A program made the translations under genes and the position numbers. This document shows, in pieces, positions 1,905-34,244 of a DNA stretch of 34,244 nucleotides. How positions within the stretch are numbered: position 1 is the stretch's first letter; each line of letters opens with the position of its first letter. The stretch covers positions 1 to 34,244 of the IMG/VR virus record IMGVR_UViG_3300009155_000018; one strand, given 5' to 3'. The DNA comes from a virus. The notes under the pieces are model-generated. The model was not told the origin of the DNA, searched no databases, and saw nothing but the letters and a program-made list of their open reading frames with translations.

Positions 1905-2669
1905 ATGTGTTCATTAGGAAAATCAGGCGGAGGCGGAACTGTGGTTCAAACGCCAGAAATCACTCCGGAACAACGGGCACAAATTCAAGCACAGAATGAA
2001 TTTTTTACCGGCACAATTGCTCCCACATACAAACAAGCAGTCAAAGGTGCCACAGATCTTTATAACCTAGGTGCTCCTGGTGTAACACAAGCCGCACAGA
2101 ATTTGGCCGGCACAGCAGGCAAAGCACAACAGACCCTGGGATCCACAGGTGAAAGTGCCTTACGCACAGGTATATCAGGATTAGAAAGTCTGTTCAGCAG
2201 TGATTACGAACAGAATCAAATTCGCAATGCCTTGATGCCAGCGCAACAACAATACATGCAAAACTTGGCCGCACAACAGGCACAGTTTGGTGGTGCTGGC
2301 AATTTGGGATCAGCACGTAGTGCCTTGGCACAAACAGCCCTGGCTGGACAAACACAAGCCTCACAGCAAAAGGCCGCAGCCGACATTCAAGCACAAATTG
2401 CAGCACAACGTGCAGGCGTAGGCCAAACCTTGGCAAGTTTGGGTCAAGGTGGAATTGGACAGGCATTAGGTGCAGCCGGACAAGGTGTCAGTGCCGCAAT
2501 GACTCCACAGCAATTGTATAATCAATATGCATCGGTGATATTTGGCACACCAGCCGGCAGTTACACTCCGGACTTCCGTGGCACACAAGGCAGCACCCAA
2601 GTCAGCAACCAATCAGGCTATCAAATGGGCCTTGGTGGTGCTTTTGGCAGTTTAGCTAAACCATTCTAA
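1905..2669 (+). CDS. Putative virion ejection/injection protein, Ala-Gln-Gly-rich
   Basis: 254 residues. It starts MCSLGKSGGGG; the Cys-Gly-rich N-terminus is followed by long Ala/Gln-rich predicted helices (residues about 20-190). The C-terminal stretch includes YASVIFGTPAGSYTPDF, which I recall from uncharacterised virion-associated proteins of uncultured podoviruses. AGGAG before the ATG supports the start. It lies between the giant repeat protein and the transglycosylase-bearing protein, the place where podoviruses encode proteins ejected with the DNA (compare P22 gp7/gp20/gp16 or T7 gp14-16). No catalytic motif is visible. A virion protein is likely; the ejection role is inferred from composition and position. 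Confidence 0.7.
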   Translation: MCSLGKSGGGGTVVQTPEITPEQRAQIQAQNEFFTGTIAPTYKQAVKGATDLYNLGAPGVTQAAQNLAGTAGKAQQTLGSTGESALRTGISGLESLFSSDYEQNQIRNALMPAQQQYMQNLAAQQAQFGGAGNLGSARSALAQTALAGQTQASQQKAAADIQAQIAAQRAGVGQTLASLGQGGIGQALGAAGQGVSAAMTPQQLYNQYASVIFGTPAGSYTPDFRGTQGSTQVSNQSGYQMGLGGAFGSLAKPF

Positions 2670-2680
2670 GGTAAACAAAT

Positions 2681-5443
2681 ATGGCAATAGATGCAATGGG
2701 CAATTACACCGTGGCGGATGATACTGCAATAATAGATGCGGCCACCGCGGAAGAAGAACTGCGTCGTCGACGTGAAGAAGAACTACGTCGACAACAACAA
2801 GAAGCGGCTCGTAATCAACCAGTAACCCAAAAAATAACTTACAATCCAGATGGCACTCAAAAGATGACCATCACTGGAACTCCACAGGCCTTGAGTGCAG
2901 GTCAACCCAACACACCCACTGTGAGTGGTCCAGTCCGACCAGACGATATTTACAATCGTATGATTCAAGCAGAATCAGGTGGGCGCCAATTCAACGCACA
3001 AGGTGGTGTGCTGACCAGTCCAAAGGGTGCCATGGGTGTAGGCCAAGTCATGCCCAGCACAGCCATGCAACCTGGCTATGGTGTCAAGAACATATTTGAC
3101 ATGGCTACTGAACGCGGCATACCAGTGGCCACACGTGATGAAGCCACAGCTCGACAACTGTTGGGTATCGAAGGATTAAATCGTGATTTTGGTCAAGCCT
3201 ACTTCAATGGTATGCAAAATCGATTTGGTGCAGGCAATCCAGCCGCTGTTGCAGCCTACAATGCCGGACCAGGTCGTGTGGGTCAAAACGTGCAGGCCAA
3301 TGCGGGTCAGATGAATGTGGCACAATTGCCACAAGAAACACAAGGCTATTTGCCAAAAGTATTTGGGCCAGCTGTGCCACAAACAACCACAGCTCCTTGG
3401 GCAGCCGATTTGTCCGCAGCTCAAGGCAATCCAGACCGATTAACGGCCATTGTAAATGGATCGTATCCTGACAATGTAAAAGCCACAGCACAAGCACAAT
3501 TGACCGAATTACAACGTCAACCCGCACCTGCACCCGCACCTGCACCCGCAGCGCAAGGTTCTGTGCAAATTGATGATCAGGGCAATAGACTTGTTACCAC
3601 ACCCACTGGTGAAACATTTGCTGTGGGTCCCGACAACCGCCCCTTGCCTGCACGTGGTGTGGCAGTGGAACAAATGGGTGCGTTTGGACAAGACTTTGTT
3701 AAAAACCAAAAAAATCCACAAGCTCTATTGGCCATTGCCGATGACAACTCAGGCAAATATACAGCATTTGAACGCAAATTAGCCAAGGATCAAGTTTACG
3801 AAACTGTTCGAAATCAACGAGTAAATGAACAGGCACAGGAACTAATTACCAAGGCTAAAGATTCAGGTGATGGTCGCGCACTGGCTAAAATTCTACAAGA
3901 TCGCAGTGAAGGCGTAACTGCTGGCCGTGTTGCTCAGGCATTCTTGTTCAACTTGATTGGTTTTCAATCTGGTGCCAGAGATGTTGTGAACAAAATGGGC
4001 ATCAATGACACTTATGAAACTACCACAGACAAAGATGGCAATGCTGTTGTGATTAGAAAAGCCCCAGATGGCCTGCCAAAGTCTGGTATAACTGCTGATG
4101 GTAAGGAAATTCCAACTGACCAATTAATTCAGTATTTGGGTGGAACAGGCAAAGATTTTGATATTGTAGGTGGCACGTTTGTAAATGATAAAACTGGAGA
4201 GGTTGGAACAGTATATCGTAGCAAAACCAATCCCAACCAACAATTTGTTCAAACTGATACTGGACGCAAACCTCTCACAGGATTTAGGCCACAGACTAGT
4301 TCTGGCACAGCATCTGATCAACGAAACAAATTAATACAAGACATGAACATCAAGTTGCAAGGCAAAACGGCTGAGCAGCAAATGACTATCCAACAAGATT
4401 ACAACAAGTTGTTGGTTGGTCAAGGTCTTGCACCATTGCAACCCAATGATACTCCATTGGTTGCTCCGCAGATTGGTGGTGGTCAACCAGCAGCCGTGCC
4501 AGCAACCGGTGGTCAACCAGCAGCCGCGCCAGCAACCGGTGGTCAACCAGCAACAGGCGGTGCAGTTGCTCCAACTCCTTTAACAGCGCCAGCAGCGCCA
4601 GCAGCGGTGCCTGCACAACGGCCAACAGCAACAGCACTTGCTGCCGGTGCAGAAGCAGCCAAAACACCAGTGCTGGTTCGTAGAGAAGATGAACAAGCAT
4701 ATGTCAAGTTCAAGAACGATGATATTTTGCCCAAAGCAGATGCTGGCAATCGATTGGCTGGCATTCGCAGAGATCAAATTTCTGGCCCAGATGGTGTGCT
4801 GAACAATCCAGAGATTGCTGGTTTGTTGTCCGGCACCGGCAGTCAGGCTCGCGAATTCCAAAACATATTCCGAGATATTGTGGGTGGTAGTTTTGACAAG
4901 GTTGATGATATGAGTGCTCGTATCAAACAGTCCGGTCTGGATGACCGCATGAAACAAGTGTTGCAGATTCAACTACAACGCCAGCGTGAAGTTACTCCGC
5001 TGTTGATTCGTGAAGTTGCTCCTGTAGGCGCCATCACTGACTTTGAGCAGCGTATGGCCAAAGAAGCCGGCATTGATGTGTTGCGTCAGGGCCTGTATGC
5101 TTCGCTGACCAATCTCACACGCAGCCAGTTCCAAAGCGACATGGCCGCATACAAGTCTGTGTTTGCTGAACGCAATCCAGAACTACGCACACGAGCAGAA
5201 TTTGATCGTGCATGGAACGCTGAAAAGAGCCGATTGGATGCTTCATATCGTAAAGTATACGAAGATCGTGCAAAATATTTGGGTCAATACAATCGCGATG
5301 GTCGAAACAACAATGCTACAATTGTAGCGTTTAGAGATCACTACCCAGTGCCGACATTTGATCAAAGCACAGGACAGTTTGTTTTTGGTGGCTATAGTCG
5401 CAACGCAGAGCGTCCACCATTGAGTTCATTTGAAAGACGATAA
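2681..5443 (+). CDS. Large virion protein with N-terminal lytic transglycosylase (SLT) domain
   Basis: 920 residues. After a charged Arg/Glu-rich stretch (about 24-45), residues 86-230 form a goose-type lytic transglycosylase domain: the catalytic Glu in QAESGG (E98), then GAMGVGQVMP (116-125) and AAYNAGPGRV (191-200), all hallmark positions of the SLT family. The rest is long, helical and Ala/Gln-rich. It has a Pro/Ala/Gly linker (about 595-660) with three copies of a GGQPA-containing repeat. In podoviruses such proteins (T7 gp16 type) are internal core proteins that cut peptidoglycan locally during DNA entry. The ATG at 2681 follows the previous stop by 11 nt. No separate endolysin is recognised in the window, so a second role in lysis cannot be excluded. 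Confidence 0.88.
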   Translation: MAIDAMGNYTVADDTAIIDAATAEEELRRRREEELRRQQQEAARNQPVTQKITYNPDGTQKMTITGTPQALSAGQPNTPTVSGPVRPDDIYNRMIQAESGGRQFNAQGGVLTSPKGAMGVGQVMPSTAMQPGYGVKNIFDMATERGIPVATRDEATARQLLGIEGLNRDFGQAYFNGMQNRFGAGNPAAVAAYNAGPGRVGQNVQANAGQMNVAQLPQETQGYLPKVFGPAVPQTTTAPWAADLSAAQGNPDRLTAIVNGSYPDNVKATAQAQLTELQRQPAPAPAPAPAAQGSVQIDDQGNRLVTTPTGETFAVGPDNRPLPARGVAVEQMGAFGQDFVKNQKNPQALLAIADDNSGKYTAFERKLAKDQVYETVRNQRVNEQAQELITKAKDSGDGRALAKILQDRSEGVTAGRVAQAFLFNLIGFQSGARDVVNKMGINDTYETTTDKDGNAVVIRKAPDGLPKSGITADGKEIPTDQLIQYLGGTGKDFDIVGGTFVNDKTGEVGTVYRSKTNPNQQFVQTDTGRKPLTGFRPQTSSGTASDQRNKLIQDMNIKLQGKTAEQQMTIQQDYNKLLVGQGLAPLQPNDTPLVAPQIGGGQPAAVPATGGQPAAAPATGGQPATGGAVAPTPLTAPAAPAAVPAQRPTATALAAGAEAAKTPVLVRREDEQAYVKFKNDDILPKADAGNRLAGIRRDQISGPDGVLNNPEIAGLLSGTGSQAREFQNIFRDIVGGSFDKVDDMSARIKQSGLDDRMKQVLQIQLQRQREVTPLLIREVAPVGAITDFEQRMAKEAGIDVLRQGLYASLTNLTRSQFQSDMAAYKSVFAERNPELRTRAEFDRAWNAEKSRLDASYRKVYEDRAKYLGQYNRDGRNNNATIVAFRDHYPVPTFDQSTGQFVFGGYSRNAERPPLSSFERR

Positions 5444-5444
5444 T

Positions 5445-6206
5445 ATGGCCATTGATAGAGAAAAAGCACGAGCGGCAGGTTATACAGACGAAGAAATTGA
5501 TGCCTACGAAGCACAACAGGCACCGACACCGGGTCCTGTTGGTGCGGCACCTCCTCCTCCTCCTCCGCCCAGTGCTGATCAAGGCCAGGCCAGCAGCACA
5601 TCATTGGGTGAGATGGCCACCACCGCTGGGTTGGCGGTTGCACCTTATGCTGGTGGAGCAGCATTGGCAGGAGCAGGCTTATACGGAGCCAGTATGGCCA
5701 AACAAGGTTTCAACGCCATGAAAGCCGCATCCGAAGCAAGAACAGCACAGGCCAATGCACAAATGGCACAGGCACAAGGATTGCAACAAAGATTTGATCA
5801 ACGCTTGGCCGCCCAGGCTGCTCGTGCCGCTCCTGCACCTGCCGCATCACCAATACTGGATGCTCGCGGTCAACCCATGCGACCTGCCATGGGTCCAGTA
5901 GCACCTGCCGCTCCTGCCGCAATGCCACCTGCTGCTCCTGCACAGGCACCCAGTGTCTTGCAACGTGGCGCAGAAATTGCTCAACGTATGCGTGAAATTG
6001 CCGCAAGCAAAGTGGCACCGGTTGCTGAAGCTGTGGCACCATATGCCCGAGCAGCAGGTGGCATTGCCGCAATGGCCATGCCGGGCAATGTGGGACAAAA
6101 TTATCCGTTTCCACAAAAAGGACCCATGCGCGGTCAGGAAATCAATCCAGCAACTGGTCGTCCTTGGACACCAGCAGAATTACAACAGTATAACCAGGCC
6201 TATTAA
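5445..6206 (+). CDS. Ala/Pro-rich putative virion protein
   Basis: 253 residues from the ATG at 5445, one base after the preceding stop. A TTG 15 nt upstream overlaps the previous gene and is less likely. The N-terminus (IDREKARAAGYTDEEIDAYEA) resembles a short helical docking segment. It is followed by a Pro run (residues about 37-45), a Gly/Ala hydrophobic segment (about 60-85) that could enter a membrane, an Ala/Gln-rich helix and a Pro/Ala-rich half. Composition matches the two genes upstream, suggesting a third virion or ejection component. No family is recognised. Confidence 0.7.
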   Translation: MAIDREKARAAGYTDEEIDAYEAQQAPTPGPVGAAPPPPPPPSADQGQASSTSLGEMATTAGLAVAPYAGGAALAGAGLYGASMAKQGFNAMKAASEARTAQANAQMAQAQGLQQRFDQRLAAQAARAAPAPAASPILDARGQPMRPAMGPVAPAAPAAMPPAAPAQAPSVLQRGAEIAQRMREIAASKVAPVAEAVAPYARAAGGIAAMAMPGNVGQNYPFPQKGPMRGQEINPATGRPWTPAELQQYNQAY

Positions 6207-6208
6207 AC

Positions 6209-6640
6209 ATGACCACTGTAGAATCACTAACACAACTGTTTCGAGACAACTTTGTGGCCTACTTTCGTAGCCATGCAGCACATGCCAATGTGACTGGACG
6301 CAACTTTCGCAGTGACCACAAGTTGCTACAAGGCATATATGAACGCAGACAAGAGCAGATTGACCGCATAGGCGAAATCTTACGCAGCATGGGTGAATAC
6401 ATGCCGTGTGACATATTCGAAGTGGTCACTGAAAGCCGTATGCCCACCACAGCCATAGAAGGCACAGCAGATGAATTGCTGGCACAGGTGCAGACCGATT
6501 TGGAAATGCTGTTGGATGATTTTAAGCAACTGATTGAAACAGCCACAGACGAAGGGCTGGAAGAAATCAGCAACTACGCACAAGACCAAGCACTAGACAT
6601 AGAAAAGAGCTTGTGGATGTTGCGAGTGACCTTGGAGTGA
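6209..6640 (+). CDS. Dps-like ferritin-fold protein
   Basis: 143 residues, all predicted helix. The N-terminal half matches the Dps (ferritin-like) pattern: H25 in AHANVTGRNF, H37 in SDHKLL, D52 and E56 in QIDRIGE. Spacings of 12, 15 and 4 residues equal those between the E. coli Dps ferroxidase ligands H51, H63, D78 and E82. The E. coli D67 position is Gln here (Q41), and the Trp after the first His is Ala. Dps proteins oxidise and store iron as dodecamers and protect DNA. Related short Dps-like proteins occur in other uncultured phages. It begins two bases after the preceding stop, within the virion/ejection run, so it is probably made late and could be packaged. Iron chemistry is inferred from residues only. 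Confidence 0.8.
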   Translation: MTTVESLTQLFRDNFVAYFRSHAAHANVTGRNFRSDHKLLQGIYERRQEQIDRIGEILRSMGEYMPCDIFEVVTESRMPTTAIEGTADELLAQVQTDLEMLLDDFKQLIETATDEGLEEISNYAQDQALDIEKSLWMLRVTLE

Positions 6641-6642
6641 TC

Positions 6643-6909
6643 ATGAAGGAACTCTCTGTGATTGAAAATCTTGCGGCTGAAAAGACCAACCTAGAGTTGC
6701 ACGTGGATCTATGTGCCGAACGCTACGGTCAACTGATCAGAAAGTTTGACGAAGTGGATGATCGTTTGGATCAACTGACCGTGATGGTCAGTGACATCAA
6801 ACAGTCAGTAGAAAACATTACAACCACAACCCAGGCCACCTATCTCAAGTGGGCAGGCTTTATTATTGTGACCTTGTTGGGCCTGGTCATACATTTTGTG
6901 GTTAAATAA
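6643..6909 (+). CDS. Small coiled-coil protein with C-terminal membrane segment (XhlA/holin-accessory-like)
   Basis: 88 residues from the ATG at 6643, two bases after the previous stop. An upstream GTG at 6613 would overlap the Dps-like gene by 28 bases. Residues 1-65 are charged and heptad-like. Residues about 70-87 form one hydrophobic helix ending in a short cytoplasm-like VVK tail. A soluble coiled coil followed by one C-terminal membrane span is the plan of haemolysin XhlA-type holin partners and of some spanin or ejection proteins. It closes the plus-strand virion run, a common place for lysis genes. A lysis role is plausible but not shown. Confidence 0.6.
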   Translation: MKELSVIENLAAEKTNLELHVDLCAERYGQLIRKFDEVDDRLDQLTVMVSDIKQSVENITTTTQATYLKWAGFIIVTLLGLVIHFVVK

Positions 6910-7004: not shown

Positions 7005-7700
7005 TCACTTTTTATAACTTGCCAGCGTGGGTTCTGAACCCATAGCCACAATCTGCGGTTCGGGTGTGGTCTGATAATATTCACCTGCTGTGGGTGGTGC
7101 ATACGTGCCGTGTGCTACCACTGTGTGCGGATCAACTGGAATGTCCACAGCAAAAGTTGCAGTGCTGAGTCGCTTGTAGGCACTGCTGCCTTTGATGGTA
7201 TAACCTGCTTGTTCGTGCAGGCGCAAAAACGCATCATGTTTGGCACGTATGGTGGCCGACACAATGATTTTGATACCACAAGCCGCGGCCCAAACTTCCC
7301 ACATGCGGATCTGCTGTGCCAACAAGAACAGCTTTTTTCTATTGCTGATGTGCGGAGCCACTTGACTCATTCTAATCACAATACATTCTTCAGTGGACCA
7401 AGGCACATACTGACCGCGTTCGGCCCAGGTGTAAGCAATGATCTCACCGGTGTCCACATCAGCGGCCAGGCTAAACAATTCTTTTTTGGGATTGTAAAAC
7501 TGATTCACAATGCTGAGCAACATGTTACGACCCAGTTCAATTAGATCAATGGTGTAGATGTCATCTACTTCGTGTCCAATCTGTTCAAAGCTGAGTCGAA
7601 CCAAAGCATCCACATCTGATCCAGCAGCCGGACGCCAACGCCATGAGTCTGCTGTGGTATGACTATACTGTTCTAAATCTGAATTTTTAACCTGTTTCAT
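7005..7700 (-). CDS. GNAT-like acetyltransferase (tentative)
   Basis: 231 residues, read leftward from the ATG at 7700. An AGGAG ribosome site lies 8-12 nt upstream, and ATG and TGA overlap by four bases with the gene before it. The middle resembles a GNAT fold: an N-terminal WRPA..SDVDALVRL segment, then a strand-turn-strand around DTGEIIAYTWA (about 83-93), a basic region NRKKLFLLAQQIRMWE (about 120-135) and a C-terminal HDAFLRLHEQAGYTIKG block (155-171) typical of the last GNAT strand-helix pair. The canonical acetyl-CoA loop (Q/RxxGxG/A) is not clear. The substrate is unknown. It is the last gene of a four-gene leftward cluster. Confidence 0.6.
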   Translation of the reverse strand: MKQVKNSDLEQYSHTTADSWRWRPAAGSDVDALVRLSFEQIGHEVDDIYTIDLIELGRNMLLSIVNQFYNPKKELFSLAADVDTGEIIAYTWAERGQYVPWSTEECIVIRMSQVAPHISNRKKLFLLAQQIRMWEVWAAACGIKIIVSATIRAKHDAFLRLHEQAGYTIKGSSAYKRLSTATFAVDIPVDPHTVVAHGTYAPPTAGEYYQTTPEPQIVAMGSEPTLASYKK

Positions 7701-31336: not shown

Positions 31337-34244
31337 ATGGCACTAACCGGACAACAACTTTACGCCTTGCAGGCAGATTATAACAAGCAATTGGCCGCGG
31401 CCAAAACGCAGGCTGAATTCAATGCAATTTTAACCAAAGCCAAAACAGCCGGTGTTACACTAGATACAAAAATCAAAGCAGATACACAGGCCGCAATTAG
31501 TCGAGCAGAAACAGAAGCTAGAACAGCCACAGCCAAAGCTGCCGCTGACAAAGCCATTGCTGAAAAGGCTGCTGCCGCCAAGGCTGCCACAGACAAGGCC
31601 TTGGCTGAACAGGCAAAAAAACAATATGATGCTATTGCAGCTACCACGGCCAAACTCAAAACTGAATCTACAACTCAATTAAAAAATGCCACTACTAGTC
31701 AACAAATAAACGACATATTGGCCAAAGCCAAAGCTGGTGGTGCTGTGCTGGATCCTGCCACTGTCACTATGGCTACAGATCGTGCTAAAGTATTAGATTT
31801 TAACACCAATTTAAGCAAAGCAACCAGCATTAAAGAAATTGATGCATTGGTTGCCAAAGCCAACGCAGACAAAGTTGGATATAGTGTGCAATCCATTGCC
31901 ACGGCTAAAGAGCCATTCATTCAACAAAGTTTACAAAAATATCAACAACAATTAAGTGCCGCCACTTCAATCCGAGATGTCAATGCTATTGCCAACCAGG
32001 CCAGTGCTGAACTTGGTAGATCATTAGATCCGGCCAGCATTACAAAACAAACACAAAGCATTATACAAGGATACACAGATCAGATCAAATCAGCCAAGAC
32101 TATAGATGAATTGACATCATTGCAACAAAAATTGCAAAGTGATGGTGCCAATCTAGATTCTAAATTGTTTGCTAGTGCCAAAACTAATCTTGATGCGGCC
32201 ACCGCTGCCGCACAAAAACAACTTGCAGACCAACAGGCACAGATCAAGGCCGCACAGGCCGCGGCAACTAATCAAATTAGAACTAATTTTATCAACAATG
32301 TAATAAACAAAGGCACGGCCACACAACAGCAAATTGATGAATATACCAAAGCTGTAACAGCGGCCGGTGGAACTCCTGAAGCAGGTCTTGTGACTCGAGC
32401 TCAGGGATTTATTGATAGTGCGGCCAAAGCAGAAATTGCTAATAAACAATCAGCTGTTAGAACTAATTTTATCAACAATGTAATAAACAAAGGCACGGCC
32501 ACACAACAGCAAATTGATGACTATAAAAAAGCCATAACTGATCTTGGTGGAACTCCTGACGCAGGTCTTGTGACTCAAGCACAAGGAATTATTACTGCCG
32601 CGGCTACGGCTGCCAAAAATGCACAATTACAAGAATTTAAAAATGAAATCACACGAGGCTCTAATGCCGCATCATTGACCAAAGCACAAGTAGCTGACAT
32701 TGCGGCTCGTGCTGAAAAAGCCGGAACACCATTGGATCCCACTTATCTTAAAGATGCCAATGATCGAGCTCAAGGGTTTTTGGCTGACAATTATTCACAA
32801 CAAATATACAATGCCGGCTCGCAAAAAGAAGTTGATGACATTTTAGCCAAAGCCAAAACTGATGGTGTCACAGTTAATGCTGGCATACTTGCCAATACTA
32901 CCAAAAACATAGCAACCAGAGTTGCTTATCAAAATGATATTGCTAAATTTGTCACTGATCAACAGACCATGCCTGGCATGCCCAAGACAACTTATGGTCC
33001 AAATGGTGCAACATTGTATTCAATACCACCCGACGCTACTTCAGGCCACAAGGGCGGTTGGTATAGTTTTGACAGTGGCAACAACACCTGGAGAGAACTG
33101 GGCAAGGATGGCAAACAAACAGGCAAAATTATTACTCAAACTGAGCTTGATAAACAGGCCAATGATGTAGGTTATAACCTGGCCATGAAAGCCGGTGATA
33201 TACGCACAGCCAACACTTATGCCAGTCTATCAAAAGATCCAGCCAAATTTGAAGCAACATTACCAAAAGTAGTCACAGCTGAATATGCCAAAGCACAATT
33301 GGTCAATCAAAATGGACTTGCAGATCCAAGTTTGGCCTTGTCATACGGCAATTATAGCCACAATCCACAAGAAACTTATGTGCCACGAACTGGACCAGAC
33401 GGCACTGATTATATCTATCAACCAGCAAACATAGTTACAGGAGCACCGGGTCAGTGGCTCAAATCCACCAGTAATCAAAATGTCAGTAATACTTTAAAAA
33501 ATTATGTTCCTGTAGGGCAACCTAATGCTGTTCCAGTAAGCTATAAAAATCAAGTGGCAGCCATTGACCAATCGATCAATCAAAACTACGCCACAGCCAA
33601 ACAAATCAGTAGTGACATAAATCGCAAATATGCAGAACAAAAAGCAACTCTTTTTAGTAACAGTGGTGGTGATGACATATTTGCACAATTTGACAAACTG
33701 GTCAATAACACTATTGGTTGGAAAACTATTGCCACAATTGCAGGAAGTTATCTTGGTGGCCCATTGGGTGCCGCTATTGCCAATGCCACTGTGGGTGCAG
33801 TCAAGGGCGAAAGTATTGAACAAATAGTCAAAGGTGCTGCATTAAGTTATGCCATATCCTATGGCACACAAGCATTAGGTCAAGCCCTTAATGAAACCGT
33901 GGCTGCAGGTGTTGAAACTGGCGGCATTGATCCAATTGATGCAAGTGAATTTGACACAGGTGTTGAACAAATACAAAATCCTTCACCTGAAGTGCCCACA
34001 GGACCAGAAATCCCAGGACCAGTGGCACCACCAATTGCACCTGAACCAGTATACACAGCACCTGAACCAGTATACACAGCACCTGAACCAGTATACACAG
34101 CACCTGAACCAGTATACACAGCACCTGAACCAGTGGCACCACCAATTGCACCTGAACCAGTATACACAGCACCTGAACCAGTATACACAGCACCTGAACC
34201 AGTATACACAGCACCTGAACCAGTATACACAGCACCTGAACCAG
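31337..34244 (+). CDS. Giant repeat-rich virion/ejection protein, N-terminal part (continues at 1..1848)
   Basis: The frame runs from the ATG at 31337 to the end of the window without a stop; the rest is at 1..1848. Residues about 1-550 hold roughly nine degenerate repeats of 60-70 residues, each with a core like NDILAKAKAGGAVLDPA or DDILAKAKTDGVTVNAG within Ala/Gln-rich helices. A mixed region follows with a small beta motif (KGGWYSFDSGNNTWRELGKD, about 574-593). Then comes a Gly/Ala hydrophobic segment (TIATIAGSYLGGPLGAAIAN, about 797-816), a likely membrane-active helix, and the PEPVYTA repeats. Large helical proteins with membrane-active parts after the tail genes are typical podovirus internal or ejection proteins. 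A fibre or tape-like role is less likely. Confidence 0.8.
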   Translation, partial: MALTGQQLYALQADYNKQLAAAKTQAEFNAILTKAKTAGVTLDTKIKADTQAAISRAETEARTATAKAAADKAIAEKAAAAKAATDKALAEQAKKQYDAIAATTAKLKTESTTQLKNATTSQQINDILAKAKAGGAVLDPATVTMATDRAKVLDFNTNLSKATSIKEIDALVAKANADKVGYSVQSIATAKEPFIQQSLQKYQQQLSAATSIRDVNAIANQASAELGRSLDPASITKQTQSIIQGYTDQIKSAKTIDELTSLQQKLQSDGANLDSKLFASAKTNLDAATAAAQKQLADQQAQIKAAQAAATNQIRTNFINNVINKGTATQQQIDEYTKAVTAAGGTPEAGLVTRAQGFIDSAAKAEIANKQSAVRTNFINNVINKGTATQQQIDDYKKAITDLGGTPDAGLVTQAQGIITAAATAAKNAQLQEFKNEITRGSNAASLTKAQVADIAARAEKAGTPLDPTYLKDANDRAQGFLADNYSQQIYNAGSQKEVDDILAKAKTDGVTVNAGILANTTKNIATRVAYQNDIAKFVTDQQTMPGMPKTTYGPNGATLYSIPPDATSGHKGGWYSFDSGNNTWRELGKDGKQTGKIITQTELDKQANDVGYNLAMKAGDIRTANTYASLSKDPAKFEATLPKVVTAEYAKAQLVNQNGLADPSLALSYGNYSHNPQETYVPRTGPDGTDYIYQPANIVTGAPGQWLKSTSNQNVSNTLKNYVPVGQPNAVPVSYKNQVAAIDQSINQNYATAKQISSDINRKYAEQKATLFSNSGGDDIFAQFDKLVNNTIGWKTIATIAGSYLGGPLGAAIANATVGAVKGESIEQIVKGAALSYAISYGTQALGQALNETVAAGVETGGIDPIDASEFDTGVEQIQNPSPEVPTGPEIPGPVAPPIAPEPVYTAPEPVYTAPEPVYTAPEPVYTAPEPVAPPIAPEPVYTAPEPVYTAPEPVYTAPEPVYTAPEP
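32277..32520 (+). repeat. Recent 180-bp duplication inside the giant protein gene
   Basis: A 64-base stretch at 32277-32340 recurs identically at 32457-32520, a 180-bp (60-residue) spacing. The rest of each unit is similar but diverged (for example GGTGGAACTCCTGA and GCAGGTCTTGTGACTC are shared). The unit is two copies of the degenerate AKAK-type module, one copied more recently. Confidence 0.92.
34028..34244 (+). repeat. Higher-order 111-bp repeat of PEPVYTA units at the contig end (includes terminal repeat copy 2)
   Basis: A block of a 22-nt lead-in, four 21-bp units (34050-34133) and five linking bases recurs with a period of 111 bp (34028 and 34139). The second block runs off the window end after four units (34161-34244). 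It is identical to bases 1-106, where the array continues to six units. The exact number of units and blocks at the join cannot be fixed from this assembly. Confidence 0.92.

Follow-up and report, generated by a model that had tools for sequence, protein, structure and literature searches.

Introduction

To our knowledge, Dps genes of phages have so far been seen as occasional accessory genes that aid the oxidative stress tolerance of the host. Increased tolerance of oxidative stress was proposed for the Dps of gut phages of the 'Gratiaviridae' (PMC8008677), and a role in oxidative stress tolerance was likewise proposed for the Dps of Lactobacillus phages (PMC6669764). Both are phage groups other than the one described here, and in the Lactobacillus phages the Dps gene is located near genes of DNA metabolism. 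Among the Dps-type proteins of bacteria the nearest to the present one is HP-NAP, whose ferroxidase centre combines H25 and H37 from one subunit with D52 and E56 from a second; H22 forms a salt bridge with D52, E41 and Y44 lie near the site, and W26 shifts upon metal binding (PMC4192664). The short helix of HP-NAP comprises residues 69-75.

Here we describe a gene for a Dps-type protein that is found at the end of, or next to last in, a putative ejection operon throughout a lineage of phages.

Results

The window, by which we mean the whole stretch of 34,244 nucleotides that was analysed (IMG/VR record IMGVR_UViG_3300009155_000018), carries on its plus strand, at 6209..6640, a gene that runs from ATG to TGA and encodes a protein of 143 amino acids. 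The earlier note had read this gene as encoding a Dps-like protein of the ferroxidase type and had called for a profile search, in which Pfam Ferritin (PF00210, residues 6-142, 48.2 bits against a cut-off of 24.5 bits, E=1.4e-12), the phage family phrog_3636 (E=6e-26) and HP-NAP (1ji4, residues 1-141, E=6.5e-15) were all matched. Compared with PDB sequences, a profile of the phage Dps family matched CAIP (E=1.7e-21) and HP-NAP (E=1.8e-20). The top phmmer match, the repeat protein 7rdr, was discarded as a many-copies artefact of about 9 bits per repeat. The NCBIfam equivalog for Dps of the E. coli type, PRK09448, scored 27 bits and remained below its cut-off of 114 bits, and judged by its sequence the product is a member of the Dps family and not an orthologue of E. 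coli Dps. The likeness to E. coli Dps on which the original description relied holds as far as the Dps type is concerned, whereas the nearest match is HP-NAP, in which the ligands carry identical residue numbers.

All four of the proposed ligands, H25, H37, D52 and E56, are present at the 12/15/4 spacing, as are H22 and Y44 of the second shell, while Ala26 occupies the position of HP-NAP Trp26. The replacement of E. coli D67 by Gln had also been described correctly, Gln41 being the residue at that position. We rejected the loss of D67 as a mark of lost activity, as HP-NAP too is without Asp there (Glu41). The pattern H-x11-H-x14-D-x3-E occurs once in the six-frame ORFs of at least 60 amino acids of the window, compared to 0.02 occurrences expected from shuffles. 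A chance motif was rejected on this figure and on the E-values of PF00210, phrog_3636 and HP-NAP, which are independent of the motif.

An AlphaFold model of the protein, built from 54 window and IMG/VR sequences (pLDDT 97.4, pTM 0.90), has helices at residues 3-27, 33-60, 69-74, 87-114 and 118-142, of which four are long and the short one, 69-74, is the BC helix of Dps proteins. The four-helix arrangement of Dps is seen in the model, with the short helix present in the BC loop and a fifth, C-terminal helix absent. A fold other than the ferritin four-helix bundle had been set beforehand as the outcome that would speak against the assignment; the predicted fold is such a bundle and superposes on Dps structures across all 143 residues (Z of about 22, 1.2-1.6 Å). 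The best Foldseek match of the model is apo HP-NAP (3t9j, TM 0.93, 1.6 Å), and the best VIA matches are Streptococcus Dpr, Listeria Dps, TpF1 and HP-NAP, with Z values of 21-22.6 over 141-143 residues. Because the ligands are in identical, gap-free register with those of HP-NAP, they would be expected to converge across the two-fold dimer interface of a 12-mer shell. From the matches and the model taken together, we regard the product of 6209..6640 as a genuine homologue of the Dps-type dodecameric ferritins, and the fold, the ligands and their invariance across the family strongly support the Dps-like, ferroxidase-type identity that was first suggested.

Relatives of the gene were found at 78 IMG/VR loci with 48-100% identity, and members from records selected by their terminase extend this range down to about 36%; the proteins of the family are about 143-165 amino acids long. 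H25, N27, H37, Y44, D52, E56 and W136 are invariant in all 77 non-redundant sequences, and H22 is kept in 76 of them. Position 41 is Gln in 52 sequences, Glu in 16, Gly in eight and Lys in one, and never Asp, and position 26, that of HP-NAP Trp26, is Val in 46, Ala in 12, Ile in 10, Leu in five and Phe in four. Because these two positions are occupied by such residues, the rate of the site or its oxidant may differ.

In a set of 64 sequences all members are strongly acidic, having a pI of 4.3-4.7 and a net charge of -12 to -21 per subunit, and none has a basic Lys/Arg-rich tail at the N- or C-terminus. These properties bear on the idea of a classical Dps that protects phage or host DNA by coating or condensing it, an idea suggested by the annotation of phrog_3636 as 'DNA binding protein' and by the basic tails that mediate DNA binding in several Dps proteins. 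As the present proteins are strongly acidic and the basic tail is absent, they are unlikely to bind DNA nonspecifically in the manner of E. coli Dps; protection of DNA through binding is, on the same sequence features, also unlikely, and we consider a classical DNA-protecting Dps highly improbable.

The median dN/dS among pairs that are 80-98% identical is 0.10, and the distances between Dps sequences correlate with those between terminases (r=0.78), a value that none of 999 permutations reached. The low dN/dS and the correlation with the terminase indicate that the Dps gene is functional and is inherited along with the phage backbone. Among 24 records picked through terminase similarity, independently of Dps, the gene is present in all 14 that are at least 25 kb long, and the nine records without Dps are fragments of 13-24 kb. 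Dps is a core gene of this phage lineage. The nearest GenBank outgroup, MW202484, whose terminase and capsid show 49.5% and 57.9% identity, is without Dps, the best match at maximum sensitivity having E=0.3. Since the gene is found in all relatives of at least 25 kb and is missing from the outgroup, the phages probably acquired it at the base of the lineage, or close to it, and have retained it since. Regarding a bacterial origin or a close copy in a host, a profile scan of genome contigs, which reaches only relatives that share short peptides, gave no confirmed relative, and no tRNA genes that might point to a host were found in the window.

The three genes upstream of Dps, all on the plus strand, encode a small protein, an SLT protein and an Ala/Pro-rich protein, a combination typical of ejection clusters in podophages, and an ejection role is suggested for them on these grounds. 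The first (1905..2669) encodes a putative small ejection protein of 254 amino acids that has no family match and keeps its place in the gene order in most relatives. It is followed by a gene for a putative ejection protein of 920 amino acids (2681..5443) with an N-terminal SLT lytic transglycosylase domain (Pfam SLT PF01464, E=4.5e-7) and phrog matches to endolysin, virion and tape-measure families. The third gene (5430..6206) encodes an Ala/Pro/Gln-rich putative ejection (internal virion) protein of 258 amino acids, again with no family match, which varies in sequence and length between relatives; its stop codon lies 2 nt ahead of the Dps ATG. The order of the ejection cluster and Dps is the same in relatives: at 88 of 88 scorable loci an upstream ORF of 88-1085 amino acids ends between -26 and +50 nt from the Dps start, the commonest gaps being -4, +1 and +8. 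The place inside an ejection-protein cluster that the earlier note had assigned to the gene is therefore conserved in every testable relative. At one locus beyond the 88 (L023), a short Lys-rich frame at about 1523-1920 runs into the Dps start, and at another (L056) a small Lys-rich frame is found upstream of 6001; at both loci the frame separates the ejection-type gene from Dps.

Conceivably, iron chemistry no longer plays a part and the phages retain the Dps fold for a structural function in the ejection machinery, either as a scaffold or as an assembly factor; the location of the gene in the ejection operon might suggest this, as might the fact that neither the otherwise conserved Trp26 nor an Asp at position 41 is preserved. 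Yet the four ligands together with H22 and Y44 are kept in 76-77 of 77 sequences despite drift to about 36% identity, and Dps remains constant next to an upstream ejection protein that ranges from 88 to 1085 amino acids, which does not suggest a tight mutual fit. As the metal site is invariant, a purely structural role is unlikely, and we give it little credence.

Downstream, the gene had been described as adjoining a membrane protein, which is true of the window but of only a minority of relatives. The gene in question (6643..6909, plus strand) starts 2 nt past Dps and encodes an XhlA/holin-like coiled-coil protein of 88 amino acids with a C-terminal transmembrane helix (phrog_1193, E=3.3e-5, a match obtained with a longer reading from 6613). 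In relatives without it, Dps closes the operon and faces a convergent gene. This convergent neighbour (7005..7700, minus strand), which lies opposite Dps in nearly all relatives, is predicted to encode a GNAT-fold acetyltransferase-like protein; its model adopts the GNAT acetyltransferase fold (Foldseek E=5.6e-8), the C-terminal tail of the window's copy being of low confidence, and no convincing Pfam match was found among 19 members of the family. Near the Dps gene no promoter or terminator signals rose above shuffles, and the order of the genes suggests that Dps belongs to a late transcript. The two ends of the window carry the same 21-bp repeat, CCTGAACCAGTATACACAGCA, in six copies at 13-138 and in eight at 34040-34234. 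As both ends fall in the same repeat, the contig probably represents a circular map that was broken within a repeat-bearing, proline-rich gene.

Discussion

Based on our data we lean, with modest confidence, towards a ferroxidase cage that is made late, does not bind DNA and clears Fe2+ and peroxide from the infected cell as virions assemble. Encoded last or next to last in the ejection operon, the Dps-type protein would be made late and would be expected to form a dodecamer, with each metal site shared between two subunits, one contributing H25 and H37 and its partner D52 and E56. The acidic shell would admit Fe2+, which would be oxidised at the ferroxidase sites and then stored in the form of a ferric mineral. 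The oxidant in known Dps proteins is mainly H2O2. During virion assembly and DNA packaging the dying cell would thereby be rid of both Fenton reagents, the DNA itself being left unbound. What speaks against this reading is that the pore residues are only partly acidic, the equivalent of HP-NAP D126 in pore I being Gln (Gln125) in 75 of the 77 sequences, whereas that of D127 is Asp or Glu in 76. In addition, a role confined to the cytosol would not require the fixed linkage to ejection genes, where other phages have linkage to metabolic genes.

The same linkage leads to another possibility, which seems to us doubtful and yet deserves serious attention, namely that the Dps cage is made together with the ejection proteins and is a component of the virion, in the head or with the internal proteins, where it would guard the packaged DNA against environmental iron and peroxide or from where it would reach a new host. 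Packaging is favoured by the position of the gene in the ejection operon, which is constant throughout the lineage, with intergenic gaps close to zero, and Dps was detected by mass spectrometry in purified particles of the podophages SU10 (CDS67, 35.8% coverage, 6 peptides; PMC4281155) and Privateer (QIN94861; PMC7881722). However, a sigma factor and DNA polymerase were likewise present in the particle preparations of SU10, which makes carry-over possible (PMC4281155), and the ejection proteins of SU10 are gp20-24 and not Dps (PMC9509320). Dps-fold domains are also found inside longer phage proteins annotated as prohead protease, and the BFVD entries A0A6J7XDU5, A0A6J7WPK9 and A0A6J7WIS1, longer proteins of uncultured phages that are named 'Prohead protease' and contain such domains, may represent Dps fused to a head maturation protease and would then be relevant to packaging. 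In contrast, none of the sequences of the present phage family is fused to a virion protein or carries an extra tail or targeting peptide. The acidic surface speaks against binding to packaged DNA, and a cage of about 9 nm would need to be disassembled in order to traverse the tail, its intact passage through a short tail being hard to picture. We regard it as rather unlikely that short-tailed-type phages of an entire lineage package a Dps-type ferroxidase together with the ejection proteins, as a defence against iron and peroxide or as an iron load, and possibly deliver subunits to the next host.

For the Vi01-like phage Sajous1 a ferritin-like protein, gp217, has been reported from the virion proteome, and its gene shares a putative operon with that of a tail completion protein (PMC10892097).

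In the lineage described here Dps is a core gene of every sufficiently complete relative, it is under strong purifying selection, its ligands are fixed and it is located behind the putative ejection proteins. The lineage therefore lends itself well to finding out whether phages control iron at a late stage of infection, as the late-made cage that we favour would do, or have a ferritin inside their particles, an issue already brought up by the mass spectrometry of SU10 and Privateer virions.

HP-NAP and the bacterial Dps proteins CAIP, TpF1, Listeria Dps and Dpr have the same full-length fold as the predicted phage protein (Z of about 22, TM 0.93). The phage proteins and HP-NAP have H25, H37, D52 and E56 under the same residue numbers, H22 and Y44 in common and a residue other than Asp at position 41, and yet they are only about 30% identical; the phage protein is more acidic (pI 4.5 compared to 5.6), Trp26 is replaced by small or aliphatic residues, and the surface features of HP-NAP that are linked to neutrophil activation are not apparent. 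Unlike the bacterial cages, the protein is phage-borne and encoded in an ejection operon. Sequence relatives are also found in phages of the phrog_3636 type, such as Synechococcus phage S-EIV1 (31.8% identity) and Cronobacter phage GAP52 (28% identity), which have the same ligands; the membership of these two, of Salmonella phage 7-11 and of the kuraviruses (SU10) in this family is deduced from shared annotation. Their Dps genes are placed differently, as that of S-EIV1 adjoins a sulfate adenylyltransferase gene and not ejection genes, that of GAP52 is found among the genes of dCTP deaminase, thioredoxin and NrdD and not behind ejection proteins, and that of SU10 is located among the middle genes (PMC4281155). 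We found no report of Dps in the present lineage in the openly accessible literature. Dps proteins of phages are already known, and what is new is the fixed position of the gene in the ejection operon across an entire phage lineage.
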